Below are positions 830 to 53,031 of a stretch of 64,000 bases of DNA, piece by piece. The notes beneath the pieces were generated by a model. The model had not been told where the DNA came from, did not search any database, and saw only the letters and a list, made by a program, of their open reading frames with translations. The DNA is from Onthophagus taurus (Eukaryota > Arthropoda > Insecta > Coleoptera > Scarabaeidae): the NCBI RefSeq assembly GCF_036711975.1, contig NC_091971.1, positions 11,291,501 to 11,355,500 on the forward strand, read 5' to 3'. The translations under genes were made by a program, and so were the position numbers. Position 1 is the stretch's first letter, and the number at the start of each line of letters is the position of its first letter.

Positions 830-2145
830 AAGGCAGAAACAAATATTCAGGGAAAAAAACAAACATGAGACAAAGCTCATCAACTTAATGCATTGCTTTC
901 ATCTCCTCGAACCCGTATAAAAAATCAAGAAGAAGACAAGACCAACAAAAAACTAAAAAAAAGTACCTACAGCAATCACCTCGCTAGATAGAAATGAGAA
1001 CTTTAATCATCTTCATGAACTTATAACTTAATAATTAATGATAAATATATCAAATAAAGGTTATGGCTATCAACTTGTATCTGTGACAATATACAAAACA
1101 TTGCTTAAAAGAACCAAAGTGTATCAAGTGCACTGAAAAATTTCAAACAGTGTAATGTAACAAACCAAAGGATGCTGCTCCAAAATGTGTTCATTGCCGT
1201 GGAGACTTGCCAGCTAATTACCGTGGATGTATTGTAACTAAAGAACCACAGAAAAGAAAAAGCCAGTTTGTGGTCAACCTCAATGGATTAATAATGGATA
1301 ACAATGGAATAATAAGTAAGGTGATAGATAAACGGGAAATAAAAATGATAAAAAAAGAGTCACCAATCCTAAATCAAAGATCGAATTCAAAGAAAACAGA
1401 GATAACAACCAACTCAGCATAAAAATAGTATTGATATAATGCTCCAAAGACTAATCCAAAAGAGCCAAAGTTGAAATTGCTATTTTCACTTAAGAATTCT
1501 TAAATTTAATGTAAATGGAAGTACACAATTGTAGTGTCTGCAATTCTTGGTGCTGCGGCAAAAACTAAGAAAGTTAATGGATATTTCTGACAAGTGATAT
1601 ATCATGCATTTCTCTTAATTAACCTCAAACAAACACTTATAAAGATATAATTACAAATTTATACTGCCCACCGAGGTATGCCACAAGAAGGGAACAATAT
1701 GTTAACTTCCTAGAAGGGGAGGGATAAAAATTCATAGTGGAAGAAGATAACTGAAAAACTATTAATAACAAACAATATATTAGTGAATTAAACCCAACCC
1801 AATAGATACAAACAAAATTCTTAACCTTATGGTAATCTATATAATTAAGAATATCTCTTCAAATTAAACAGTACAGTTTTTGAGTCAACCCAGTCCAAAT
1901 CAGTCCAATTCAAAACTGAGGAGCAATTAGATTTACAAATGAATGTGGAAATGATAGAGGTGATAGTGATACTTAAGCGGGAAAATCCTGCCCATCAAGT
2001 AACATCGTACAAGTCCATATCTTTGATACCTGTCGTTCCAAAACTTTATGACAAATTACTTCTTGAGAGATTAAGACCTACAGTAAGAGGAAGGCATTCT
2101 TCTCGCAGGTACGGATTTAAAGCGAAAGACGCGATCGTTAAATAG
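830..2145 (+). mobile_element. Decayed Jockey-like non-LTR retrotransposon
   Basis: Three pieces of a Jockey-type element appear in the expected order. Around 1,110-1,240 are two degraded gag CCHC knuckles, seen as CIKC...CNKPKDAAPKCVHCRGD and NYRGC; one stop codon lies within them and a knuckle histidine is replaced. Around 1,640-1,735 is an endonuclease piece reading CPPRYATRREQYVNFLEGEG. At 1,939-2,145 is a reverse transcriptase piece with SYKSISLIPVVPKLYDKLLL, which resembles the usual SYRPISLLPVxSKLFEKLLL block. Frames are broken between the pieces, the catalytic YxDD region is absent and no intact protein can be made. The 5' limit is approximate. Confidence 0.75.
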
Positions 2146-4430
2146 TCTCCAGAAGAATTCAGAATGAGCAGAATTGTATTTCAGAAGTGCTCCTAATCGC
2201 AGAGTATATTTGTAAACCTGAAAAAAGTTATTACAAACATTTCTGACAATACCCCCATACTGGTCGTTGAAAACATTATGATGAAACTAAAAGGAAATTA
2301 CAAACTTCTATAAATGAAGTTAATATCCATATCCAGCTCCTTGACAATTGAAATTCCAGTTTATCACGAAGACTAAAAACAGCTTCTGCGCATAGTATTT
2401 TGCAATCTTATCATGCGCAATAATATAAAATTAAATTCGCATGAGCATTGAAACCGGTGTGAGATCGATACTTCAATGTATCTTGCTAAATACATCGTAC
2501 AGAACGGGTTCTGAAGGAATATGCATAATAATGAAATAATTTTTATAACTGTAACATATGTAAGATTTATCTTTCTTATAATCTTTATTACTTGCCTATA
2601 TTTCATTCGTATTACTGGATTAATATACGTGTTTCGTATTGGTACTGGAACGAAGACTGTTTCATACAGGTTTTATTGTAATATACAAAAATAGTAAATT
2701 TGTAATAAGTGAGACGCAGTTTGGATTTAGATAACACATAAGATTATGCAGCAAAATTTAACGCAAATATTCAATTGTTGAAATTGCATAAAGCTCTAAT
2801 TTATCCTAATGATTATATTTGCTGATGCACTGCATTAGCTTTGTTAATAATGTTTTACTATAATTATAGTAACAGATATGACGAACTTGTAAAACATTTT
2901 ACCAATTTAACAATACATTCAGTGTAATATTTAATTAAAATGTGACTCATTGCAACTAAGCCATATTTATTCAAAAATTCATAATTTACAAACATATAGA
3001 ATAGCGTGGTCAACGAGGTCGTTTTACATAGTGTTATCCAAAGTAATCTGATATTTGAAAAATATCTAGTCAAGCGAAACACACGCAATTCACCCATACA
3101 GGAAGAGAGCAATATTATGTTGATTTTAGTGTACAATCAGATTTCAAACATAAAAAGTGAAAATTATTTAAGTGTTCGATTTAAACATATCAAAATCTGA
3201 TAATTATACTTTTTATTCAATAGATAAATTTAATGTCAGTGTTGCACAATAATATCTACGCATATCTAAACATTATCTCTGCTATAACAATAAACAAATC
3301 CGTTTCTCCATATTGATCTTGTCGATTAACGTGCTCTTAATAATCAAATATTTTCGAAGGACGCCTCCGTTGTTGCTAATCAATATTTGCTTGTAATGGA
3401 TTCCGCACGAGTTATTTCTTGCATTTGACCCGATTCCATTCATGTAACTTGTAAGCTAGTTAAATCTACTAGGCAACATGAAAACTTAAGGTAACATATA
3501 GGAAATTCTATGTAAAGTAATTCATATTTTAATATTTTAAATTAGACGAGCGGAAGTGTATTTCATCCGTGTGTACGGTCTAGGAAATGAAGCGTAGAAT
3601 AACGTTAGCTGAACCCGTAGGTTTAACAGTTAGTTCTGAAGCCATTGACGTAATAACTGGTTTTAGTTCATATAGTGAAAGAGGCCTCACAGTTGAAGTG
3701 TATGAATAGGCAGATTTTAATTACAAACCGGCTTTCTGAGTATAATGATTTTTTTTTCAGCCGTCAAGTTCCCATTTACGCGCAATGTCAAGGCTGTGCG
3801 TACCGAAGAATAAATACGGAAGCAACCAGACAGGTAGAAATCGATAAAAAGCCGGTGAACTGGATTTGTGACTGACGTCGTCGTCGTGGACGTCGACGTT
3901 TATTGAAGGACACGCTCGTTACGGAAGACCTTGCACCCGAAAGGTCATCGTTCGTTAAAGTAAAAGGATCGTTTCCAGTAGCAATCACCTCTTCATTTTT
4001 AATTTCCTGGCTTGTTTTTTTTTTTCTATTGGTATTGTGGATAATTAAAAAAGAACATTGAAGCTTGACCTAAAAACACATTTAAAAAAATTAAAGAAAA
4101 ATCCCACAAATTGTCATTGTTAATTCATTCGTTCGCATAATAAGAGAGGTGCAACACAATAATTAATAACAACCCATTATAATTCGAAACTTTGTACGCT
4201 TGACCCATTCTTGAAGGTAAATACAGTCACTAAACGTTGTAATGATAAACTTTCAATTCAGCGGATTAATTTTATAAAAAAAAGTAAAAATACGTACAAA
4301 AAGTGTAAGTAAGGTAGTGTTACGTGAAAAATTGCGTGCTCTACCGAACAACACTACTTATAATTCACCTTGCGAACAGCATTGCGTAATTTATTAGAAT
4401 GGATTGGGTTTAGTAAGTTTTATTTGGTAA
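2146..4430. other. Intergenic, no recognised gene
   Basis: A/T-rich sequence without convincing coding signal. A more GC-rich patch at about 3,780-3,990 has CGTCGT-type runs, but neither strand gives a recognisable protein. Confidence 0.45.
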
Positions 4431-4439
4431 AAGTTACTT

Positions 4440-4815
4440 ATAACTTTCAAATTTTTCTTCTTCTTCATCCTTCTGTATTTGGACATAACTCTCCATCTTT
4501 TTCTAGGTCTTCTAATGCTTTTGTCATTCGGTCGATGTGCTCATTCCATTTCTTCTTTCTGTCCAATACCCAATCATTGATGTTATTTATCCAGCAAACC
4601 TGTCAAATATTCTCACTTCTTTCTCAGCCCATCAATATTTTCCCAACTATTCTACGATTTTCATTTCCGTAATTTCTAGCATTCTTTTTGTTTTGGATCT
4701 TTCTGGTCGAGTTTCTGCCACATATCTTAATACAGGTCTAATTAGGGCCTTGTATATTCAGGCTATGGTTTCAGTTCTAATATGTTTATTTCGCCATATT
4801 GTGTCAGTGATCTGA
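4440..4815 (-). mobile_element. RTE-like non-LTR retrotransposon 3' fragment
   Basis: The minus-strand translation has the typical C-terminal tail of RTE/BovB-type ORF2: a stretch reading ALIRPVLRYVAETRPERSKT, then RMLEITEMKI and, after frame breaks, a W-rich piece with WTERRNGM. This order (IRPV.tYaaETr, K.kmLe..EMkilr) is the familiar thumb and C-terminal region of these polymerases. It is frameshifted and lacks the polymerase core. It ends about 90 bp upstream of the NDUFB1 homologue. Confidence 0.65.
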
Positions 4816-4902
4816 TCGAATTATCTATGGTTTCACAAATTAATCAGCTTGACGTATAAGTCAAACCAAAATTAAAAAATCTTGAACAATTTACCAAGAA
4901 GA

Positions 4903-37217: not shown

Positions 37218-38569
37218 TTATTTTCTCTTCTTTAACTCTTCAAATCGACGAGTTAAATCGTCGAAATCGATGTCGTCGTTGTTGGTAGGCGAAGTTAAAT
37301 GGTCATCTGTTGGTACTGAAGGCAACTCGGGTAGATCCGGATAATTATTTCCTTCTGGCATTTTCGTCCGCGGGGCTGGTTTAGGTTGTTCTTTATTCTA
37401 AACTCACAGAAATAAGAAAACATTATGAAATAAGCGATAAATACACACCTTGTTAAAGTTGTCTGGTGGTAATGATGAATAAGGTGGTGGTAAAGACTCC
37501 TTTAATTAAAAAAAAAAAATTGTGCACCACAAAAAACACCAAATAAAAAGATAAGGAATGATTTTTAAGTGAGATAAAATGATTCATAGATTAAAAATAG
37601 GTGCATTAAAAAGTTTTTACCCCAAAATCGGTGTTTGATTCTTTTGATTCAGCTCCTGGTGGAATGTTATAAGAAAAAGGGGCCCCGTAAGGTGGGTTAT
37701 TACTTGAAGAAGGAGCCGATGGGTTTAATGGACCAACAAAACCTCCTTGATCGGGAATATTTCCCCCCATAGGCTAAATAAAAAATTATTTATAACAAAA
37801 TAATAAATAACTACAATTTTACTTACAGGATAATTAAATGGACCTTGTAAAGGTAAAGGTGGGGGTTGTGGGTATCCAATAAATCCTGGTGGATACACGT
37901 TACCTCCACCCAAATTATTTTTATCACTTAAATCTATTAACATTCCATCCCGATTTCCTTCTCCTAAGATTTGTGGATCAGGGTCATAAGGAATATCATA
38001 AGTTTTAGCAATTTCAATTAAATATTTTTCAACAAGAAGTTTTGGAGGGCTCTGAATTGACATTTTATGTTTTAATTTAGGGCTTATTCTTGTCTCAGAT
38101 TCGTTTCTACACGCTTCGGCGAATTGCAAACCATATTTTCCTGCTAATAAATCAGCAATCACTTTTAATTCAGGACAATCGGATTGTAAACGAGGGGCAA
38201 CCCACATTATACTAGCGATAGCTTCAGCTATACCCTCATCTAAGTCTTTCATTTGGGTGATTAAACCAAATCGTGCCAATAATAAATCACAGTACATTTC
38301 AACAACTTCCATAGCTTCAACTAAGTAATCCTCTCTAAAAACAAGTTAATTTTAGAATTATTAAAAAGTTAATTTATAATTACTGACCTAACAATATGTT
38401 CAACACGAATTTTAGCACGTTCATATTTTCCAGCTTGGATAAAATCGGCGATTTCTCGCCGAGATTTTTGAGTCAACTCACTTTTTTTCTTCTCGAGCAG
38501 TTTTAACCTATTTATAGCTAATCTTAAATGCGTTTTTAATTTTGTATAATTCGGCCCGCTCGAAAACAT
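37218..38569 (-). CDS. IST1: IST1 homologue (ESCRT-III associated factor)
   Basis: Cytosolic ESCRT-III-like protein that binds CHMP1 and VPS4 and works in endosomal tubule scission and cytokinetic abscission. Exons: 38,388-38,569; 37,827-38,334; 37,621-37,773; 37,449-37,499; 37,218-37,397, all frame-consistent; 357 residues. The N-terminal helical IST1 domain begins MFSSGPNYTKLKTHLRLAIN, includes QKSRREIADFIQAGKYERAK and EAIASIMWVAPRLQSDCPEL, and extends to about residue 180. A Pro/Gly-rich linker follows. The C-terminus has a Pro-rich PDLPELPSVP (MIM2-like) and the MIM1 motif DIDFDDLTRRFEELKKRK, nearly as in human IST1. This is the intact copy; a broken partial copy lies at 45,570-46,304. 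The left breakpoint of the tandem duplication falls at 37,836, inside exon 2. Confidence 0.96.
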
Positions 38570-39104
38570 CTTTACGATTTACACTTTTAAACAATACTGA
38601 GCTTACTTTAGATAATAATAAGTAGACTTTAAATGAGTAATTAATCGTGACTCATTTCTAATAAAAAATGACGTTTTCGCTGTCAAAAATGTCAAAAAAA
38701 GTTAGGTTATTGTTGTGTTAAGTCCATAGATATCTTTAAATATGGAGTGGGGCGAAAAGTAAAGAAGATGGATATATTAATAAATGTGGACTAGGAAAAT
38801 TTAATGTTTATTTATAAACTTATTTTCTTTTCAATACGAAATTATATTAATTAAAAGTAATTAACACATATTTTTAGTAATAAAACTTACATATTGATAA
38901 TTATTTCATTTTTAGTTCTTTCTGCGCAATCTCCGCGATATAAACGTGTGTTACCGTCTGGTGTGGCTAAAATTGTACTTTTCAGTCTCCTTTTAGACGT
39001 CAAAGCGTTTAGAAAGTATCATTTCGACTTTCTCGCAAGTAAAAATTCAACCTAATTGTGGTTGTCATGACAACATTTGTTTAAATAATAGTAAAGCGTG
39101 TTTT
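38570..39104. promoter_or_regulatory. Divergent promoter region IST1 / recombinase-like gene
   Basis: 535 bp separate the two start codons. The region is retained at the matching place in copy 2 (46,305-46,840), including TTAGACGTCAAAGCG and a GTTGTCATGACAACATTTG palindrome just before the recombinase-like ATG. Both genes probably draw on a bidirectional promoter; no TATA box is evident. Confidence 0.5.
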
Positions 39105-42100
39105 TTGTGTGAAATGATGGCGGAAGACAGTGATTCTTCAAATAATTCCCTCACTGAGCTTAGATTGCAAAAGCCCCCGAATATATCGCAAATCGAATCG
39201 TTACCTGTAAAGTCGCAAAATTTGTACGAGAAGCGATATAAATTATTTATGACATGGTGCGCGAGTAATAAAGAAACGCATTATTCTGAAAACGTAATGT
39301 TAAGGTATTTTATGTACTTGGCGAAAAATTGCAAACCAACAACGTTATGGGCTGTTTATTCGATGTTAAAATCGACGTTGTTAATGAAAAATAAAATTGA
39401 TATTAGATTGTATACGAGAGTTACTGCATTTCTTAAACAACAAAATGTTGGATATAAGAGTAAGCAATCGAAGGTTTTTACTCCTCAAGAGATTCTAAAA
39501 TTTCTCCGGGAAGCCCCTAATGAAAGATATCTGATGTGGAAGGTAATTTTTTTTGAAATTTATTGTTGTTTATTTATTAAGTGCTGCTTATACGAAAATT
39601 TTGCGCAAGCGCAGAGCCTAGAAACATAATTACTGTACGAGTGTGGAGAATTTCACGACGAGGTCGTAGACCGAGTCGTATAATCACACGAGTACTGTAA
39701 TTATGCTCTAGCCCAGTGTTTTCCAAACTTTTTTCACCGTGGAACACTCCTTAAGTTTTAAATTTTTGTGGTAGCAATCAACGAGGCAATAAACATGTAA
39801 AGCTTTAAAATTTTCTCATTAAAGATTTCATTTATTTTACACTTTTTCGCGAAACACTTACCGACTGTCTGCGGAACACAGTTTGGGAATCGCTGCTTTA
39901 GCCCACGTGTGATATACAACATTTTATCTACGACTACTAAAAATTACTTAAAAATCAATTTCTTTAAAAAGTTCTATTTTGACATTTATAAAAATATTTT
40001 GAAATAATTGTTGACAATTTTGAATTAATGTCAGTTTCAATAACATGTTTACTCATCTGGAATAAGTGTTTCAAGATGTAAAAACATAACAATTAATGTT
40101 TATAATAAATAGTATTGTTTCACTTTAAATAGGTCGCACTTTTTCTTTTGTATTGTTGCTCGTTTCAATAAATTAAGTCTGTTCTGATTGGTGATTGACA
40201 TTACGTAACTCAAATCACCTCAAATGAGTGTGGTAATGATGACTTATCTAAGCAGTCGTAGATAAATAACTATTTATAGTTATTCACTTTGCTGACTTGG
40301 TACATAAATAACTATTAGGTACTGTTTTAAGAATCTCTTAAATAAATTTTAAACTAGAATCAGAAAATAATATTATTCGGCCGGATTACAGTTAACGTTC
40401 GTTTTCTCGTTGAACTGGATGATTAATATAACAACGATTCAATAGTATATTAAGTATCCAGAACGGTAAGTACAATTTACCGGTTGACGACAATGTTTGA
40501 CTCCAATAGTGTCGGAAATTGTATTGTAAACAGTGCTTACAATAATATTAAAACTTAATATAATATAAATTATAATATATATTACTATATAACCAAAATG
40601 AGTGATTCTGAGAGGGAAAATGGTGATGATATAGAAAAAAAGCTTGGAATATTGGACATTCGGCAATAATTCTCAAAAAATGGTGTGAAGTAAAGAATAA
40701 AAATACGAGTGAAAAAGTCTTGTTGGCATATTTGGTCGAAAGAAACGGAAAATTAAAAGCTGCAGGTAGTTTATGGTATATATTGAGTATATATTATACT
40801 CAATGTTGAAAGCGACAATTTTTTTACACGAATCCATTGATATATCCAAGTTTTCAACATTAATTGCCTTTCTAAAAAGAAAAAATGTTGGGTACAAACC
40901 TAAAAAAGCTAGTGTTAAAATTTTTAATTGAAGCACCAGACGAATTGTTTTTAATCCATAAGGTAAATTTAGATTACTTGTAAAAATACGAGGATATATT
41001 TCCGACAATGTATTTTTTAAGTAGCAATGATATTAAGGGTAGCAGGAGCATGTCGCAGAGAAGAGTTATATAAAATGACTATTAAAGATATAGAAGATCG
41101 TGAATCTTTTATTATTATAACCATTCCAAATACAAAAACCAATATTCAGCGCACATTTACTGTCATAAATAAAAAAAACGAAAAAATTAATTATTTTGTT
41201 CGGAAATATACTAAACTGCGGCCAGACAATGCAAAGTCGTTGCATTTATTCCTAAATTATCGGAATGGGAAATGTAAAAATCAGGTAGTCGGTAAAGGTA
41301 CTATTGAAGCTTTATCATCGAAAATTGCTGAATACTTAAAATTGGAAAACGCAGTTAATTACACTGGTCACTCGTTTCGACGTACTTCAGCCACATTATT
41401 AGCCAATAAAGGTGTAGACGTTTTAGGACTAAAAAGACATGGAGGTTGGAAATCTTCGACTGTGGCTGAAAGTTATGTTGAAGATTCTCTTCAAAACAAA
41501 AATCAATTTGCAGAAAAGATTCTACATGATGATAATGAATCGCCTTGCAGCGTTTCTGATAATATACTACAATCATCAGCTTGTGCTTCTACATCACGGA
41601 CATTTTCTGTTGATACAAATACCGAAAAAAGCAATATTTCAATTTCTATTTCTAGCTGTAATAACTGTACATTTAATTTCAAATAAATTATATTTTTATT
41701 TGAAATTTTATTTATTATACTTACCGCTCTGTCGTTTTAGCCGTAGCAACCAGTAAAATCAACTTACCGTCATAGAAACGCTACTCGTAAATAAACAAAA
41801 TAGTCCGATCGTGCAAAAAGATTATTCACGGGCATTCACGGGTAACCAACTTGACAGACTAATAATAATTATTTGAAACGTTAAAATTTCAAAAAACGTC
41901 AATTTAATTCAATTTTTTAGGAGTTTCTAAAGGTTTGACATTAAAAAAACCTAAACATATTCCTTCTTTCGTATGATTTAAGCATAAATTTTGCATTAAG
42001 CACGAATTTGTTTAGGTTATTTTAATGTCAAACATTTAGAAACTCCTAAAAAATTGATTTAAATTGACGTTTTTTGAACTTTTAACGTTTCAAATAATTA

Positions 42101-44939
42101 TTATTAGTTTGGTCAAGATGGCTACCCGTGAATAATGATTATTATTCACCGCTATTATTCACTCCGTGAAAAATGACTACCATTTTGTTTTAGAAAACTC
42201 ATTCATAAGGTATATATTATAAGGTAGTCGTGGACAAAGTATAGTATTCTACTCGCATATAGCTCTCATTATATGCTCATATAATAATATACTATTTTTA
42301 ACTAAATTTTTGAATAAAGTTTAAACGTCAATATGACACAAATTCAATGTTACCAACCGTAACCAACTTCACAACAATTTGTCAAAATGAAATGTCAATT
42401 TTATGAAACGTCATGTTTTTTTTACGAAAATTAATCAATCTATGCTTAAATCATACGAAAAAAGGAATTTATTTACGTTTTTTTAATTTCAAACCTTTAG
42501 AAAGTTCTAAAAAATTAAATTAAATTGACGTTTTTTGAAATTTTGACGTTTCAAATAATTATTAGTCTGTCAAGTTGATTACCCGTGAATAATGATTATT
42601 CACCGCTATTATTCACTCTGAAAAATGACTACCCTTTTGTTTTAGAAAACTCATTTATAAGGTATACATATTATAAGGTAGTCGTCTACTCGAAAATAGT
42701 ATATTAAAAACTAAGTTTCGTAAAACACGCTTGAAATGCACGAACTCAAGTTGAAAAACGAGTGGCGAAGCCACGAGTTTTTTAATGAATGAGTCCTTCA
42801 AGTCTTATGAAACGTGTTTTTATGCTATTTTTTGTAATTCGCATTTTTTTCCTGTTTTTTTAACAAAAATAAAATAAATTTTAACAATGTAGGGGAATGG
42901 GTATGTAGCAGTTGGTAACACTTGAAAATAGAAATTGAATTGACAATTAGCACTTGTCAAAACACAAAATGTATTGACCTTAAAAAGAATGTTTCATGTA
43001 CACATTCCAAAATAAGAGAAATTGCTCAGAGTTCAATGTCTTCATCATTGTGGACCTTGTAGTTGATGTTAAAAACGTGTTTAAACATCAATAGACAACT
43101 AGAAAAATTAATGACCCAATGTTACCAATTTGAACTGGTTCCCTTTGTTGTCTCATTACAGCACTCGTTTAAGTACTGTAATAGCTTTCATTACCGTTGC
43201 GAATTACAAAAAAATAATACAATATGTTTAGTCGACGGACCTTGGGTTAGAGCATAATTACAGTACTCGTGTGATTACACGACTCGGTCTACGACCTTGT
43301 CGTGCAGTTCTCCACACTCGTACAATAATTATGTTTCTAGCCGACTTGTAATATAAATAACTATTACATGTCTTTCTAACGTTATGTAACTTCGCTTTTT
43401 TATAACTAGTGATGTAATGAATTCCATTACCTAACTACAAATTGATAAATTGTCAATCTGTTAGTAATAGAATAAGTCAAGTTTTGTACAAATATTGTTT
43501 TTTCAATGGAATTAGATAAAATTTTGTACTTAACTCACGTAATTTACAGAACTCGCTCGCTTCTCTCGTCAAACAAAATTAATCTTTTCATAACAGGTTA
43601 CGTAAATAACTATTACGTCACGTAATTTGCAAAACTCGCTCGCTCGTTCGTCAAACAAAATTAGTCTTTTCATAACTGGTTACGTAAAATTTAATTTTCA
43701 TAATGGAGTTAGGTAATTTAAATTTAAAGAAAGATGTTTTATTATCAACCCTTATATTTTATATCATGTGTAATATAAATAGCTATTATATATCTTATAG
43801 GGTAGAAGTATGATTACAATAACGAGTCTGTAGTATTCCAGGACGAGGTCATAGCCCGACTCGTATAATCGCACGAGTGCTGTAGTTACTTTGTAACCGG
43901 AGCTTAGTACAATAATTTATTTTCGTATGATCCGGTTTAATCACACGCATGGATGTGATACAAAATTTTATATACTGCTTGGAAAAATTAATTTAATCGT
44001 TTACTTCTTTTGTTAAATAACAATTGTAGAATTTATAAAAAAATTAAAAATATCTTAGTTATCTCCATACACATCAGAGACCCTGTATATTAATTTTTAT
44101 ACTTTATTAATTTTTAGGTTTGTTTATTAATTGGGATATCTGGAGGTTGTGGTAGAGATGAATTACGAAAATTAAAAGTAAAAGATATCGCCGATAAAGA
44201 GGATATGTTAATAATAACAATACCAAATTCGAATGGGAAAATGCGAACATTTACGATTACAAACGACATGTTTGACGGAGTAGAACCTTTACAACTTTAC
44301 AGAGAATATTTCTCATTAAGGCCAATTCACTGCGAACACAACACATTTTTTGTTAATTATAGAATGGGAAAATGTTCAGTACAAGTAATTGGTATCAACA
44401 CATTTTCAAAAATTCCCAGTTTGATTGCCAAGTATTTACAATTGCCGAATCAACGAGAATACACCGGTTTCTGTTTTCGTCGAACTTCCGCTTTGTGGTT
44501 AGCAAGCGCTGGTGCTGATGCATTTACGCTACGAAGACTTGTTGGATGGAGAACATCTTCGATAGCTAGACGTTATATTGATGAAGGATATTCTAGTACT
44601 AAAAAAAATAATAATGCGGAAGAATCTGTTGGAAGTAATATCGTTAATATTAACGATAACTCTACTTCTAATGAATTTAATTTAACTAAAGATAATATAG
44701 CGGATGGTATAACAATAAATGGAATGGAAACTGAGATTAAAATTTGTCCAAATAATGATCCATTAGACGATAACGACATTAATGAAGCAACATTTACTGC
44801 AACAATCCCAGAAATTTCAAATGAATCATCTAATGATGTAAATCCTGAAACGAATCAACAACCACGTGTTACTACTTCAGGATCTTGTGTTAATATTTAT
44901 AATTGTACAAATTGTACTATTATTATTAATAGAAAATAG
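39105..44939 (+). CDS. Crypton-like tyrosine-recombinase-fold protein, copy 1
   Basis: Exons 39,105-39,542 and 44,118-44,939 join in phase 0 (LMWK|VCLLIGISGG) to give 419 residues; ATG 39,117 (second Met of MCEMM) is an alternative start. Residues about 25-140 resemble a recombinase core-binding domain (YEKRYKLFMTWCASN, TTLWAVYSMLKSTLL). Residues about 147-310 resemble a tyrosine-recombinase catalytic domain: GGCGRDELRKLKVKDI (box I), EYTGFCFRRTSALWLA (box II) and LVGWRTSSIARRYIDEG (W and terminal Tyr). Against the relative at 41.0 kb (CRREEL, TGHSFRRTSA), the first catalytic Arg is Gly and the His of HxxR is Phe; the second Arg, Trp and Tyr remain. This suggests loss of DNA cleavage but retained DNA binding. 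The tail ends CVNIYNCTNCTIIINRK. The intron is 4.6 kb. AATAAA lies at 44,970. Function is unknown. Confidence 0.8.
39620..39710. repeat. Short palindromic CGAGTCG-type element
   Basis: Begins TAATTACTGTACGAGTGTGG and ends CACACGAGTACTGTAATTA, with GACGAGGTCGTAGACCGAGTCGTAT in the middle (quoted in parts: GACGAGGTCG and CCGAGTCGTA). The family recurs at about 43,255-43,340 (inverted), 43,815-43,885, 47,360-47,450, 50,800-50,875 (inverted) and 51,268-51,340. Confidence 0.65.
39714..39895. mobile_element. Short hAT-like MITE (copy 1)
   Basis: The termini CAGTGTTTTCCAAACTTTTT and (reverse complement of the right end) CAGCGATTCCCAAACTG form imperfect terminal inverted repeats. They are flanked by near-identical 8-bp sites, CTCTAGCC and CTTTAGCC. 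An 8-bp duplication and CAGnG ends are the hAT pattern. At 182 bp it is non-autonomous. The same insertion is in duplication copy 2, so it predates the duplication. Confidence 0.75.
40598..41686 (+). pseudogene. Nested Crypton-like tyrosine recombinase, N-terminal exon broken
   Basis: Lies inside the intron of recombinase-like copy 1 and has no counterpart in copy 2. Exon 1 (40,598-40,962) starts MSDSERENGDDIEKKLG. It has an in-frame stop after ILDIRQ, a frameshift around the LW..MLKAT block, and another stop after KIFN, yet still shows MLKATIFLHESIDIS and AFLKRKNVGYKPKK. A 62-bp intron (GTAAAT...GTAG) leads to exon 2 (41,025-41,686), open throughout: VAGACRREELYKMTIKDI, TGHSFRRTSATLLANKG, RHGGWKSSTVAESYVEDS. 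All expected catalytic residues are visible here (Arg; HxxR; Trp; Tyr). The tail SISSCNNCTFNFK echoes that of the host gene. The intron position matches the host genes. It is related to but clearly diverged from them, so it is an older family member or an inserted Crypton-like element. Element ends were not identified. Confidence 0.8.
41690..44117. other. Repeat-filled 3' part of recombinase-like intron, copy 1
   Basis: Holds mutually inverted fragments built on GTTTCAAATAATTATTAGTC, GTGAATAATGATTATTCACC, GGTAGTCATTTTTCACGG-type and TTAGAAACTCCTAAAAA motifs. The same families fill 48.0-50.4 kb. From about 42,660 on it is collinear with copy 2 (50,200-51,570). No gene is seen. Confidence 0.55.
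43525..43690. repeat. Local ~80-bp tandem duplication, copy 1 only
   Basis: Two units carry CACGTAATTTrCArAACTCGCTCGC, CGTCAAACAAAATTA and TCTTTTCATAAC-GGTTACGTAA. Copy 2 has only one unit (about 51,070-51,140), so this arose or was lost after the segmental duplication. Confidence 0.65.
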
Positions 44940-45029
44940 TTATTTATTGATGTTACTTTATTTATTCTTAATAAAGATTTAAAAATGCATATATATTATT
45001 CTTACAATAAATATTAATACAAAAATTAA

Positions 45030-45568
45030 TTATATTAATTTAGCTGGAACAAAATATTTATAATAAGCCCTGGTAAAATCAATCATTAAATCCATTTCAC
45101 ACTCAGGAACCTCTCCAAACTGCATCTCAGGATTTCCTTTATATCTTGTAAATGGTGGATAACAGTTTCAGGAGGGATAACAGCATTATCCTCTATAACA
45201 CAGCAATCTTTTAACTGGCATTGTCGCCCTATCACGCAATTTTTCCCAATATAGACGTACGATCCAACCACAGCAGCATTAACCACAGAATTTTCACCAA
45301 TAAACACATTATCTCCCATAATTAACGGAAAAAATGCGACTCCTTTACTAAATTTTTTAAAAGGGGGTCGAATAACTGCTCCTTTACTAATTACACAGTA
45401 TCGCCCCGTTTTTACACTCGCCAAATCGCCTCGAATTATAGCATCCGCTTGAACTATAACCCTTCCTTGATGAATTATATTTTGCAAACCACACAGAACC
45501 GATTGTTTGCTTACTTTGTTACCGGAAGCTGTTTCCACATAATCACCTTTCCGATATGTTATATCACG
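45030..45568 (-). pseudogene. DCTN5: DCTN5 (dynactin p25) pseudogene at duplication junction
   Basis: About 97-98% identical to the intact gene at 52,483-53,031 but truncated and frameshifted. Its first codons are missing: the sequence switches from DCTN5 to IST1 right after the codons for [12 protein letters not shown] (in reading direction, just upstream). One base is missing in the [12 protein letters not shown] region (GTGGATAACAG here, GTGGTATAACAG in the gene), so the last 40 or so codons are out of frame. A 191-codon open frame runs through the junction from IST1 sequence (in a different frame) into DCTN5, but it lacks a promoter of its own and is probably not meaningful. Confidence 0.9.
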
Positions 45569-45569
45569 A

Positions 45570-46304
45570 AAATGGACCTTGTAAAGGTAAAGGTGGGGGT
45601 TGTGGATATCCAATAAATCCTGGTGGATACACATTACCTCCACCCAAATTATTTTTATCACTTAAATTTATTAACATTCCATTCCGATTTCCTTCTCCTA
45701 AGATTTGTGGATCAGGGTCATAAGGAATGTCATAAGTTTTAGCAATTTCAATCAAATATTTTTCAACAAGAAGTTTTGGAGGGCTCTGAATTGACATTTT
45801 ATGTTTTAATTTAGGGCTTATTCTTGTCTCAGATTCGTTTCTACACGCTTCAGCGAATTGCAAACCATATTTTCCTGCTAATAAATCAGCAATCACTTTT
45901 AATTCAGGACAATCGGATTGTAAACGAGGGGCGACCCACATTATACTAGCGATAGCTTCAGCTATACCCTCATCTAAGTCTTTCATTTGGGTGATTAAAC
46001 CAAATCGTGCCAATAATAAATCACAGTACATTTCAACAACTTCCATAGCTTCAACTAAGTAATCCTCTCTAAAAACAAGTTAATTTTAGAATTATTTAAA
46101 AGTTAATTTGTAATTACTGACCTAACAATATGTTCAACACGGATTTTAGCACGTTCATATTTTCCAGCTTGGATAAAATCGGCGATTTCTCGCCGAGATT
46201 TTTGAGTCAACTCACTCTTTTTTCTTCTCGAGCAGTTTTAACCTATTTATAGCTAATCTTAAATGCGTTTTTAATTTTGTATAATTCGGTCCGCTCGAAA
46301 ACAT
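45570..46304 (-). pseudogene. IST1: IST1 pseudogene at duplication junction
   Basis: A copy of IST1 exon 1 and most of exon 2. Exon 1 has one extra base in the A-run encoding KKKS, which gives a stop two codons later (KKE then TGA). Exon 2 is cut at the junction after PPLPLQGPF, followed by Ser and a stop formed by the fused DCTN5 sequence. The C-terminal Pro-rich region and MIM motifs are absent. The 160-codon exon 2 frame is otherwise still open and almost identical to the true gene (for example DGMLIDLS has become NGMLINLS). Confidence 0.92.
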
Positions 46305-46840
46305 CTTTACGATTTACACTTTTAAACAATACTGAGCTTACTTTACATAATAATAAGTAGACTTTAAATGAGTAATTAATCGTGACTCTTTCTAATAAAA
46401 AATGACGTTTTCGCTGTCAAAAATGTCAAAAAAAGTGAGGTTATTGTGTTGTGTTAAGTCCATAGATATCTTTAAATATGGAGTGGGGCGAAAAGTAAAG
46501 GAGATGGATACATTAATAAATATGGACTAGAAAAAATTAATGTTTATTTATAAACTTATTTTCTTTTCAATACAAAATTATATTAATTAAAAGTAATTAA
46601 CACATATTTTTAGTAATGAAACTTACAGTTTGATAATTATTTCATTTTTAGTTCTTTCTGCGCAATCTCCGCGATATAAACGTGTGTTACCGTCTGGTGT
46701 GGCTAAAATTGTACTTTTCAGTCTCCTTTTAGACGTCAAAGCGTTTAGAAAGTATCATTTCGACATTCTCGCAAGTAAAAATTCAACCTAGTTGTGGTTG
46801 TCATGACAACATTTGTTTAAATAATAGTAAAGCGTGTTTT

Positions 46841-49800
46841 TTGTGTGAAATGATGGCGGAAGATAGTGATTCTTCAAATAATTCCCTCACTCAGCTTAGA
46901 TTACAAAAGCCCCCGAATATATCGCAAATCGAATCGTTACCTGTAAAGTCGCAAAATTTGTACGAGAAGCGATATAAATTATTTATGACATGGTGCGCGA
47001 GTAATAAAGAAACGCATTATTCTGAAAACGTAATGTTAAGATATTTTATGTACTTGGCGAAAAATTGCAAACCAACAACGTTATGGGCTGTTTATTCGAT
47101 GCTAAAATCGACGTTGTTAATCAAAAATAAAATTGATATTAGATTGTACACGAGAGTTACTGCATTTCTTAAACAACAAAATGTTGGATATAAAAGTAAG
47201 CAATCGAAGGTTTTTACTCCTCAAGAGATTCTAAAATTTCTTCGGGAAGCCCCTAATGAAAGATATCTGATGTGGAAGGTAATTTTTTTGAAATTTATTG
47301 TTATTTATTTATTAAGTGCTGCTTATACGTCAATTTTGCGCAAGCGCAGAGCCTAGAAACATAATTACTGTACGAGTGTGGAGAATTTCACGACGAGGTC
47401 GAAGACCGAGTCGTATAATCACAGGAGTACTGTAATGACTGTAATTATGCTCTAGCCCAGTGTTTTCCAAACTTTTTTCACCGTGGAACACTCCTTAAGT
47501 TTTAAATTTTTGTGGTAGCAATCAACGAGGCAATAAACATGTAAAGCTTTAAAATTTTTTCATTAAAGATTTCATTTATTTTATACTTTTTTGCGGTACA
47601 CTTACCGACTGTCTGCGGAACACAGTTTGGGAATCGCTGCTTTAGCCGACGTGTGATATACAACATTTTATCTACGACTACTAAAAATTACTTAAAAATC
47701 AATTTCTTTAAAAAGTTCTATTTTGACATTTATAAAAATATTTTGAAATAATTAAATAATAAGCAGACGAAAATAAAGAGTACATACATAACAAAAATTA
47801 AAGCCAAAGATACAGTCAGTCTCAAAAGTCATCGTACAGCAACGATTTTTGCATGATTTCTAAAATAGGATCATAAATAATAGTATATTATTATACGAAC
47901 ATATAATGAGTGCTATTATTTACTAAGGTCACGAGCGTATCGAGTGGCATAATTAACCTGAGTGAACAATAGCTATACTTTGTCCACGACTACTATTGAA
48001 ATTGAATCTATAAATTTATTTTTTTAAATAAATTTTTGAATAAAGTTTAAACGTCAATGTGACACAAATTAACTGTTACCAACTGTAACCAACTTCACAA
48101 CAATTTGACAAAATTAAATGTCAATTTTATGAAACGTCATGTTTTATTTTTACGAAAATGAACTAATTTATGCTTAAATCATACGAAAAAAGGAATTTAT
48201 CTACAACTATTCAATTATCTATTCGTTATACATTTGATTTTTGACGGGTAATGACACGCATTACTCGCATGACTGACAAGTGTTGAATAATAAAACCATT
48301 ATTCCCCAGTTCTGATACGACCTACTAATCAAAAAATAAAATATAACAGAAATTACAGCTTTCTTATATTGAGGTTATGTCTGAAATGTCTATCAAGTTT
48401 TTTTTTCTTTTTTTGATTTTTTTTTCAAAAGTAAATAGTTGTAGATAAAGTATAGTATTCAACTTGCGTATAATGGATGTGACCCACTCAGATTACAACA
48501 CTCGCTCGCTTCGCTCGCTCGTGTTGCAACATCATCTCCGTGGGTAACAGCCGCCATTATACGCTTGTTGAATAATATACTATTGTTTACGTTTTTTTAT
48601 GTCAAACCTTTAGAAAGTCTTAAAAAAATTAAATTGAGGTTTTTTTTGAAATTTTGACATTTCAAATTATTATTAGTCTGTCAAGTTGCACCGCTTTTAT
48701 TCAGTTTGTAAAAAATGACTACCCTTGTGTTTTAGAAAACTTATTTATAAGGTATATATTATAAGATAGTCGTGAGTATATTATTATACGAGCATAATAA
48801 TGAGGGCTATTATTCATTAAGGTTAAATTTATGTCACGAGCGTAGCCAGAGGCATAATTAACCTGAGTGAATAATAGCTCATTAAATGCGAGTAGAATAC
48901 AATACTTTGTCCACGACTACTATTGAAATTGATTACATAAATTTATTTTGTCCACGACTACCTTGTAATATATACCTTATGAATGAGTTTTCTAAAACAA
49001 AAGGGTAGTCATTTTTCACGGAGTGAATAACAAAGAAAATAGCTTCGTTGAAATGCAACTCTCTAAACAAAACTTCGTACTAAAAAAATTGAACGCATGT
49101 GGCGCCATCTGTTGGGGATATTTTGGAATTATTCAGCTAAGAACCGAATCACTAGAATACAGGTGAATCGGGTTTATATATAAAAGCTCCAACCACACCA
49201 CAGAATAACTGTTTGGAAAGTGATTGGAGCCACTATGTGGCTCCAATTAACGTTCCGACTGGTTGGGAGTTCTTCAGATACAATTACCTATGGCAATTAC
49301 ACCTGTCAAATAATGCCGCCACGTTTGAATATCACTGCATCATATGACATGTGAGATTACATATGACGAGCTTCCAACCAACAAGGTTAACGTTAGCTGA
49401 AACAAAGCTATAATGTCAATTATAATCTAATTATTTAATCATACCATTATTACTTTATTATACTCTTACCGAAAAATCACTTTAAAATGACATTTTCATC
49501 TGTCATTCTGAACAAACTTCAACTTTTTAAAAGTTGAAGTTAGCGGCAAATTTAAAAATATAACACGAATTGGAATCTATACTTTTTAAATTAAAAGAAT
49601 GATACTGGTAATAATTGTTATTGCTGTCTCTCATCATTCCCACTATTAATAATAAAATTGTTAGTTTAATTAAATTATTTCAGTATAGCCGCTAATGCTA
49701 TCTTACGGTGGGATTTCGACATACATACAATCAGTCTCAAGTTTTCCTATCAAAGATCCCTGGTTAAACGTAGACGTTAAAATTTCATAAAACCTCAATT

Positions 49801-52392
49801 TAATTCAATTTTTAGGAGTTTCTAAAGGTTTGACATTAAAAAAACCTAAACAAATTCCTTTTTTCGTAAAACGACGTTTTATAAAATTGACATTTAATTT
49901 TGACAAATTGTTGTGAAGTTGGTTACAGTTAGTAACATTGAATTTATGTCACATTGACGTTTAAACTTTATTCAAAAATTTATTTATTGTCAAATTGAAA
50001 ATTAATTAATTTATGCTTAAATCATACGAAAAAAGGAATTTGTTTACGTTTTTTCAATTTCAAACTTTTAGAAAGTTCTAAAAAATTAAATGAAATTGAC
50101 GTTTTTTGAAATTTTGACGTTTCAAATAATTATTAGTCTGTCAAGTTGATTACCCGTGAATAATGATTATTCACCGCTATTATTCACTCTGATTATTAAG
50201 GTTTCATTTATAAGGTAGTTGTGTACTCGAAAATAGTATACTAAAAAACAAGTTTCGTAAGGACGCTTGAAATGCACGAATTCCAGTTGAAAAACGAGTT
50301 TTTTAATGAATGAGTCCTTCAAGTCTTATGAAACGTGTTTTTTATGCTATTTTTTGTAATTCGCGTTGTTATCCTTTTTTTTAACAAAATTAAAATAAAT
50401 TTTGACAATGTAGGGGAATGGGTATGTAGCAGTTGGTAACACTTGAAAATAGAAATTGAATTGACAATTACAAATTGTCAAAACATAAAATGTATTCACC
50501 TTAAAAAGAATGTTTCATGTACACCTTCCAAAATAAGAGAAATTGCTTACAGTTCGATGTCCTCATCATTGTGGATTCTGTAGTCGATGCTAAGAACGTG
50601 TTTAAACATCCATAGACAAAAATTGTCACATTGACAACTAGAAAAATTAATGACCCTATGTCACAATTTGAACTGGTTCCATAAAATGTTACTCATTGTT
50701 GTCTCATTACAGCACTCGTTGAAGTACTGTAATAGCTTTCATTATCGTTGCGAATTACAAAAAAAATAATACAATATGTTTAGTCGACGGACCTTGGGTC
50801 TCGTGTGATTACACAACTCGGTCTACGACCTCGTCGTGCAGTTCTCCACACTCGTACAATAATTATGTTTCTAGCCGAGTTGTAATATAAATAACTATTA
50901 CATATCTTTCTAACGTTATGTAACTTCACATTTTTTATAACTAGTGATGTAATGAATTCCATTACCTAACTACAAATTGATAAATTGACAATCTGTCAGT
51001 AATAGAATAAGTCAAGTTTTGAACAAATATTGTTTTTTCAATGGAATTAGATAAAATTTTGTACTTAACTCACGTAATTTACAGAGCTCGCTCGCTTCGC
51101 TCGTCGAACAAAATTAGTCTTTTCATAACTGGTTACGTAAAATTTAATTTTCATAATGGAGTTAGATAATTTAAATTTAAAGAAAGATGTTTTATTATCA
51201 ACCCTTATATTTTATATCATGTGTAATATAAATAGCTATTATATATCTTATAGGGTAGAAACATGATCACAATAACGAGGCTGTAGTATTCCAGGACGAG
51301 GTCATAGCCCGACTCGTATAATGACACGAGTGCTGTAGTTACTTTGTAACCGGAGCTTAGTACAATAATTTATTTTCGTATGATCCGGTTTAATCACACG
51401 CATGGATGTGATACAAAATTTTATATACTGCTTGGAAAAATTAATTTAATCGTTTACTTCTTTTGTCAAATAACAATTGTAGAATTTATAAAAAAATTAA
51501 AAATATCTTAGTTATCTCCATACACATCAGAGACCCTGTATATTAATTTTTATAACTTATTAACTTTTAGGTTTGTTTATTAATTGGGATATCTGGAGGT
51601 TGTGGTAAAGATGAATTACGAAAATTAAGAGTAAAAGATATCGCCGATAAAGAGGATATATTGATAATAACAATACAAAATTCGAATGGGAAAATGCGAA
51701 CATTTACGATTACAAACGACATGTTTGACGGAGTAGAACCTTTACAACTTTACAGAGAATACTTCTCATTAAGGCCAATTCACTGCGAACACAACACATT
51801 TTTTGTTAGTTATAAAATGGGGAAATGTTCAGTACAAGTAATTGGTATCAACTCATTTTCAAAAATTCCCAGTTTGATTGCAAAGTATTTACAATTGCCG
51901 AATCAACGAGAATACACCGGTTTCTGTTTTCGTCGAACTTCCGCTTTGTGGTTAGCAAGCGCTGGTGCTGATGCATTTGCGCTAAGAAGACTTGTTGGAT
52001 GGAGAACATCTTCGATAGCTAGACGTTATATTGATGAAGGATATTCTAGTACTAAAAAAAATAATAATGCGGAAGAATCTGTTGGAAGTAATATCGTTAA
52101 TATTAACGATAACTCTACTTCTAATGAATTTAATTTAACTAAAGATAATATAGCGGATGGTATAACAATAAATGGAATGGAAACTGAGATTAAAATTTGT
52201 CCAAATGATGATCCATTAGACGATAGCGACATTAATGAAGCAACATTTACTGCAACAATCCCAGAAATTTCAAATGAATCATCTAATGATGTAAATCCTG
52301 AAACGAATCAACAACCACGTGTTACTACTTCTGGATCTTGTGTTAATATTTATAATTGTACTAATTGTACTATTATTATTAATAGAAAATAG
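46841..52392 (+). CDS. Crypton-like tyrosine-recombinase-fold protein, copy 2
   Basis: Exons 46,841-47,278 and 51,571-52,392 join in phase 0 to 419 residues, the same length as copy 1. By eye exon 2 differs from copy 1 at about 17 of 822 bases, roughly ten of them amino-acid changes: GGCGRDE to GGCGKDE, KLKVKDI to KLRVKDI, PNSNGK to QNSNGK, VNYRMGK to VSYKMGK, DAFTLRR to DAFALRR and others. As in copy 1, the first catalytic Arg and the His of HxxR are replaced while FRRTSA, GWRTSS and ARRYIDEG remain. No stop or frameshift is present in either exon. Its stop is 90 bp from the stop of the convergent DCTN5 gene; AATAAA lies at 52,423. Its 5' neighbour here is the IST1 pseudogene with a retained copy of the divergent promoter region. 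Function is unknown. Confidence 0.8.
47458..47639. mobile_element. Short hAT-like MITE (copy 2)
   Basis: Same insertion as at 39,714-39,895, at the corresponding place in the second duplication unit, with the same flanking TCTAGCC/TTTAGCC target sites. Confidence 0.75.
47752..50200. other. Copy-2-specific repeat block in recombinase-like intron
   Basis: Collinearity with copy 1 stops at about 47,752 and resumes at about 50,200. In between are inverted repeats of the GTCAAATTATTATTAGTC, CTACTCGCAT, GTAGTCGTGGACAAAG and TCAAACCTTTAGAAAG families, and CTCGCTCGCTTCGCTCGCTC (about 48,500). No reading frame resembles a protein. In copy 1 this space holds the nested Crypton-like unit instead. Confidence 0.55.
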
Positions 52393-52482
52393 TTATTTAT
52401 TGATGTTACTTTATTTATTCTTAATAAAGATTTAAAAATGCATATATATTATTCTTACAATAAATATTAATACAAAAATTAA

Positions 52483-53031
52483 TTATATTAATTTAGCTGG
52501 AACAAAATGTTTATAATAAGCCCTGGTAAAATCAATCATTAAATCCATTTCACACTCAGGAACCTCTCCAAACTGCATCCCAGGATTTCCTTTATACCTA
52601 GTAAACGGTGGTATAACAGTTTCAGGAGGGATAACAGCATTATCCTCTATAACACAGCAATCTTTTAACTGGCATCGTCGCCCTATCACGCAATTTTTCC
52701 CAATATAGACGTACGATCCAACCACAGCAGCATTAACCACAGAATTTTCACCAATAAACACATTATCTCCCATAATTAACGGAAAAAATGCGACTCCTTT
52801 ACTAAATTTTTTAAAAGGGGGTCGAATAACTGCTCCTTTACTAATTACACAGTATCGTCCCGTTTTTACACTCGCCAAATCGCCTCGAATTATAGCATCC
52901 GCTTGAACTATAACCCTTCCTTGAAGAATTATATTTTGCGAGCCACACAGAACCGATTGTTTGCTTACTTTGTTACCGGAAGCTGTTTCCACGTAATCAC
53001 CTTTCCGATATGTTATATCACGCATTTCCAT
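52483..53031 (-). CDS. DCTN5: Dynactin subunit 5 (p25)
   Basis: Pointed-end complex subunit of dynactin, which helps dynein bind cargo. Single exon, 182 residues, the length of the human protein. It is a left-handed beta-helix built of hexapeptide repeats (for example [53 protein letters not shown]). Family blocks [37 protein letters not shown] and [20 protein letters not shown] are nearly identical to vertebrate p25. Start ATG 53,031 begins [13 protein letters not shown]. It is the intact copy; the broken one is at 45,030-45,568. The duplication endpoint lies three codons into this frame (about 53,022), so the start codon and promoter come from unduplicated sequence. It is convergent with the recombinase-like gene. 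Confidence 0.97.

Follow-up and report, generated by a model that had tools for sequence, protein, structure and literature searches.

The 64,000-nucleotide stretch analysed here, referred to as the window, comes from the scarab Onthophagus taurus (NCBI RefSeq assembly GCF_036711975.1, contig NC_091971.1, positions 11,291,501 to 11,355,500 of the forward strand) and carries two tandem copies, A and B, of a gene for a 415-residue tyrosine-recombinase-type protein. We consider it likely, at roughly two chances in three, that a CryptonI-like tyrosine recombinase gave rise to A and B as host genes and that their products probably bind DNA. Domestication was preferred because purifying selection has continued to act on the protein since it lost catalytic residues: the first catalytic arginine (Arg I) and the catalytic histidine (His) are gone from both copies, and the codon-model ratio of nonsynonymous to synonymous change (dN/dS) between them is 0.205 (p = 1.4e-4). 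It is further supported by the absence of close copies and by open relatives in which parts of the active site are missing. An earlier reading of this DNA, made from the sequence only, had suggested domestication; selection after residue loss, the lack of a close copy and the open related genes support that suggestion, short of proof.

In copies A and B, both coding exons are open and GT-AG introns lie at an identical position (AAG/GTAATT ... TTTTAG/GTTTGT), as follows.

39117..39542, plus strand: copy A coding exon 1, 142 codons, an open frame with the donor AAG/GTAATT, covering the core-binding part and the start of the catalytic domain.
39543..44117, plus strand: copy A intron, 4.6 kb, GT...AG, containing a decayed mobile relative and further repeats.
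44118..44939 (44936 without the stop), plus strand: copy A coding exon 2, 273 codons and a stop, the catalytic domain and then the tail.
46853..47278, plus strand: copy B coding exon 1, an open frame.
51571..52392 (52389 without the stop), plus strand: copy B coding exon 2, holding CGKDEL and TGFCFRR.

The sequence-only reading had described two intact two-exon frames of 419 residues. The frames are indeed intact, and the length needed correction: the product of A has 415 residues from the ATG at 39117 or 416 from the ATG at 39114, while 419 requires a TTG start at 39105. Spliced A matched the phage-integrase family PF00589 of Pfam (E = 5.8e-8, 33.1 bits against a cut-off of 27.1), more weakly than the mobile relative nested in its intron (E = 5.4e-14). 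Together with a family profile that finds XerA and Cre, this match gives A the catalytic-domain homology of the tyrosine recombinase superfamily. The profile was needed to reach Cre and XerA, since exon 2 of A alone gave no PDB match at E up to 10. No second domain was found in A or B, and both exons of A gave no NCBIfam match at E up to 0.1. Exon 2 of copy A carries G154, F260, R263, W286 and Y295, and its tail terminates in NCTNCTIIINRK; the tail of both copies is rich in asparagine, and its NCTNCT end is similar to tails seen in mobile relatives. The intron of A occupies the position of the short intron in three gene-like relatives, C14, C16 and C15, and, judged by exon ends, also that of the mobile relatives.

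Arg I is glycine (Gly) in both copies (CGRDEL in A and CGKDEL in B, against R-x-x-E-L in relatives), and His is phenylalanine (Phe; TGFCFRR, against TGH or SGH). The hairpin lysine (Lys) is lost or shifted, depending on the alignment, and the second arginine (Arg II, 263), the tryptophan (Trp, 286) and the nucleophilic tyrosine (Tyr, 295) are retained. A profile built from 11 members of the family, including A, was aligned to Cre and set Arg I at R173, the hairpin Lys at K201, His at H289, Arg II at R292, Trp at W315 and Tyr at Y324, which we take to be the catalytic residues of Cre. The catalytic domain of the family thus aligns as in Cre and XerA, with all six catalytic positions assignable in Cre; unlike Cre, A and B have Gly at Arg I, Phe at His and the Lys lost or shifted, and so lack the full catalytic set (Arg, Lys, His, Arg, His/Trp, Tyr). 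A shifted catalytic Arg at R155 of A was rejected as unlikely because the same site is Lys in B (K155) and the family profile sets the Arg one residue earlier. Both substitutions named in the sequence-only reading were therefore borne out by the residue alignment and the mapping on Cre, and its own check, whether Arg and His are retained elsewhere in the alignment, found no shifted Arg. Its phrase "without catalytic residues" holds for Arg I and His and is too strong for the whole site, since Arg II, Trp and Tyr remain.

The residue alignment had 33 rows. Besides A, B and the nested copy, it covered 30 loci, including L029 and L035, which are the C14 and C16 genes. Twenty-nine rows, the nested copy and 28 loci, were of mobile type, several of them from one family. 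All 24 mobile-type rows that reach the Arg I site have Arg there, 28 of the 29 keep His (Tyr in L031), and none of the 29 lacks Arg II, Trp or Tyr. Seven further loci (L047-L053), judged by eye, are partly broken; His survives in all six with an alignable His box, Phe replaces Trp in L053, and in L047 and L052 either no Trp box can be recognised or the His box is gone. On these rows and loci, the joint loss of Arg I and His is thus not general to the family.

Because the losses of Arg I and His are common to A and B, they are older than the tandem duplication, and purifying selection acted after them. Between the coding sequences 26 codons differ, with changes at 12 of 987 nonsynonymous and 14 of 258 synonymous sites; the Nei-Gojobori estimate of dN/dS was 0.22 (Fisher p = 1.7e-4). 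Exon 1 was the most strictly constrained part, with a codon-model value of 0.078 (p = 5.7e-4); the N-terminal core-binding part that it encodes is the part that grips DNA in tyrosine recombinases. Four chosen stretches of the duplication that align cleanly served as the non-coding yardstick and diverged by 3.5% (89/2571 sites, with 16 gap events). Nonsynonymous divergence fell below this value (p = 8.5e-5), and synonymous divergence did not differ from it (p = 0.12). Across 1245 coding sites A and B are separated by no indel, whereas the 2571 non-coding sites hold 16 gap events (p = 0.0018), which argues that the frames are open by more than chance. A truncated DCTN5 piece in the same duplication was dropped as a neutral yardstick, its 6 synonymous and 5 nonsynonymous codon differences and a frameshift being too few.

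Exon 2 of A finds at least 101 places in the 290.8-Mb assembly. Forty-three of these matches were examined (A, B, the nested copy, C14, C15, C16 and 37 others), and more gene-like copies or residue losses may exist among the rest. No close copy of A or B was found elsewhere in the assembly: among the matches listed, exon-2 identity reached at most 53% (C14), and at best 51% against mobile copies. The eight best exon-2 matches by E-value outside the pair include identities of 39-51%, and exon 1 reached at most 54% over 115 residues, or 56% over a 39-residue piece. Unlike CryptonI elements, A and B have neither Arg I and His nor close mobile copies, and the several close copies at unrelated places that mark an active CryptonI were not seen for them. 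The relative within the copy A intron is 89.4% identical to L027 (over 40515-41822) and 89.8% identical to L021 (over 40515-41730).

40515..41822, plus strand: nested mobile relative in the copy A intron; exon 1 decayed, exon 2 open (41027-41686) and keeping R, H, R, W and Y.

Many mobile relatives also have long open frames. One family, named after L015, has at least eight copies, and the longest shared DNA pieces of seven are about 97-99.8% identical. By eye, the ends of this family are AATAGTATATT... and ...GAAGAAAA, mostly within runs of A, although the right end of L018 differs. L015 itself, at 917-4862, shows a head-to-tail joining with a shortened derivative (by eye), and its kin are L016-L020 and L023; in the window, at about 50010-50040 (by eye), a repeat that matches the L020 flanks stands without the insertion. 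Such ends and arrays would be expected if a recombinase had integrated a circle at an A-rich core. Searches of viral and prokaryote collections with the family alignment returned 29 and 26 pattern matches, none of which was confirmed.

Three relatives outside the window resemble genes.

C14:510718-511638, minus strand: gene-like relative C14, both core exons open.
C16:531336-532207: gene-like relative C16, both core exons open.
C15:2110527-2111393, minus strand: gene-like relative C15, both core exons open.

In all three, an intron of 49-53 bases separates the core exons at a common place, the frame stops after the box-II stretch, before Trp and Tyr, and near copies in the genome are lacking. 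Exon 1 of C14 lacks an early ATG, and an upstream exon appears to be required. Arg I, His and Arg II are all retained in C14. In C16, proline replaces Arg I and cysteine replaces Arg II, with His kept; in C15, Lys stands at both Arg positions and Phe at His. For PF00589, C14 fell below the Pfam cut-off (E = 0.019) and C16 gave no match. Between C14 and C16, dN/dS was 0.17 at 53% amino-acid identity, with synonymous change near saturation. We regard all three as candidate domesticated genes. A separate origin of C15 is possible, as its best match elsewhere is the L015 family (46%), and on these sequences it seems more likely than a common group with A, B, C14 and C16.

Phylogenetic trees were built from loci with enough of both exons (23, 19 and 20 rows), and the near-identical copies L016, L017, L018 and L023 were dropped before the 19- and 20-row trees. 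The main tree, from 245 concatenated columns of both exons and 19 rows, separated A, B, C14 and C16 from 15 mobile rows with a branch support of 96/95 and joined C14 and C16 as sisters (99/97). The same four-member branch was recovered under a simpler model with 23 rows (91/95.2). One group of five, with C15 added, was not rejected (p-AU 0.30).

Host genes derived from Crypton recombinases have been described as DUF3504 (PF12012) genes, namely WOC, ZMYM2/3/4, QRICH1, KCTD1 and KIAA1958 (Kojima & Jurka 2011, PMC3212892). According to the parts of that account used here, Tyr and the second Arg are lost in all of them and His in all but KCTD1, many bear additional DNA-binding domains, and CryptonI comprises insect elements whose recombinase has no C-terminal domain (PMC3212892). 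On that description, A and B resemble the DUF3504 genes as candidate host genes from a Crypton recombinase with catalytic residues lost; unlike them, A and B keep Tyr and Arg II and lose the first Arg and His, and, unlike the many with extra DNA-binding domains, they have no other domain that we could find. Membership of A in DUF3504 was rejected, as spliced A has no PF12012 match at E up to 1. The four PF12012 matches of the genome lie on C5, C8 and C7, away from A and B; DUF3504 matches stand at C5:3136291, within a 999-residue open frame, C8:3397531 and C7:23545290. The mobile relatives fit the recombinase-only outline in an insect host given for CryptonI in the same parts of the source, and the source of A and B is called CryptonI-like on this host and plan, as that description sets them. 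The assembly itself agrees with an insect host, with 134 matches to PF02949, an odorant-receptor family regarded as insect-specific; searches for telomere repeats gave no useful indication of the insect order. No CryptonI-derived insect host gene was met among the papers listed by searches of an open-access library.

The duplication extends into the neighbouring genes, in units of about 7.7 and 7.5 kb.

37836..45569: duplication unit 1, with the 5' part of IST1, copy A and truncated DCTN5.
45570..53022: duplication unit 2, with truncated IST1, copy B and DCTN5 to the end of the duplication.
37725..38312, minus strand: IST1 coding exon beside copy A (PF03398 Ist1, E = 3.3e-35).
52483..53031, minus strand: DCTN5, intact frame, convergent with copy B (PF21711 DCTN5, E = 9.1e-85).

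The ends of the duplication cut IST1 and DCTN5, and at the junction, about 45.57 kb, a piece of DCTN5 abuts a piece of IST1. Across it (45030-46305, minus strand), 3'-truncated IST1 and 5'-truncated DCTN5 are read in separate frames, and a single base is deleted from the DCTN5 piece near 45158. In the middle of the intron the two units are entirely unlike (39990-42280 against 47750-49980), with the nested recombinase relative in A and other repeats in B. A scan of the window against Rfam at gathering scores gave no match.

Several results weigh against domestication. Taken separately, neither the catalytic part (dN/dS 0.416, p = 0.15) nor the tail (0.176, p = 0.10) differed from a ratio of 1. 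Part of the low C14-C16 ratio may stem from a mobile past before truncation. The addition of C15 (20 rows) lowered the support for A, B, C14 and C16 to 86/92, with C15 outside, and a tree of exon 2 only (21 rows) did not join A and B with C14 and C16. By plain counts over 10 family representatives, A and B change 3/6 catalytic and 4/18 other columns among the 24 that are invariant in the 10 mobile families; the losses are therefore not confined to the active site. With Arg II, Trp and Tyr retained, A and B may also keep residual activity, and the case is known here from the sequence of a single genome.

Three other explanations were weighed against these data. A and B might be kept as trans-acting repressors, dead recombinases that occupy the ends of mobile relatives or poison their complexes. 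The mobile relatives look recent, as the near-identical L015 copies indicate, one lies inside the intron of copy A itself, and the architecture of A and B is complete, Tyr and a mobile-like C-terminal motif included, as a dominant-negative subunit would require. However, no common binding site came to light, though none was looked for, and the identity of at most 51% between exon 2 of A and any mobile copy among the matches listed, and the missing C-terminal end of C14, C15 and C16, make this role unlikely. That A and B are inactive transposon copies carried by a recent segmental duplication, with frames open by chance, appears more doubtful still: there are only two copies, 3.5% diverged, long open frames are common among the mobile relatives and constraint on the catalytic part by itself is not significant, but this explanation has to meet a dN/dS of 0.20 (p = 1.4e-4) without a coding indel, residue changes that both predate the duplication, and related genes that are also open, with the low C14-C16 ratio.

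It is improbable that A and B are alleles of one gene set in tandem by the assembler, an explanation compatible with the other readings. Divergence of 3.5% and differing intron repeats could also separate haplotypes, but a junction between the interior of DCTN5 and the interior of IST1 is not expected from stacked haplotypes, and the selection result holds under either reading.

Under domestication, the recombinase of a CryptonI-like transposon would have become a host gene; Arg I and His were lost before the local tandem duplication, and the protein was then held under purifying selection, most clearly in its N-terminal core-binding exon. Without Arg I and His, efficient cutting and rejoining of DNA should no longer be possible; binding would be kept through the core-binding and catalytic domains and could serve a regulatory or chromatin role for the host, and through the asparagine-rich tail subunits may contact one another or partner molecules. 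C14, C15 and C16 suggest that a small family of such proteins was taken on by this genome, possibly on more than one occasion. A bolder proposal, which we offer tentatively and hold to be doubtful, is that this lineage domesticated CryptonI recombinases at least twice and removed cutting in two ways, by loss of Arg I and His with Tyr kept (A and B) and by loss of the Trp-Tyr end (C14, C15 and C16); these would form the first known host gene family of CryptonI descent, which might even be a self-made defence, binding and blocking the relatives that still move.

The Crypton-derived genes described in the parts of PMC3212892 used here are old DUF3504 genes, beside which A and B would be a younger case. 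Their relatives seem to have been mobile recently in the same genome, so that the course of domestication may be observable here: which residues were lost first, which domain came under selection, and whether the product acts on its mobile relatives.

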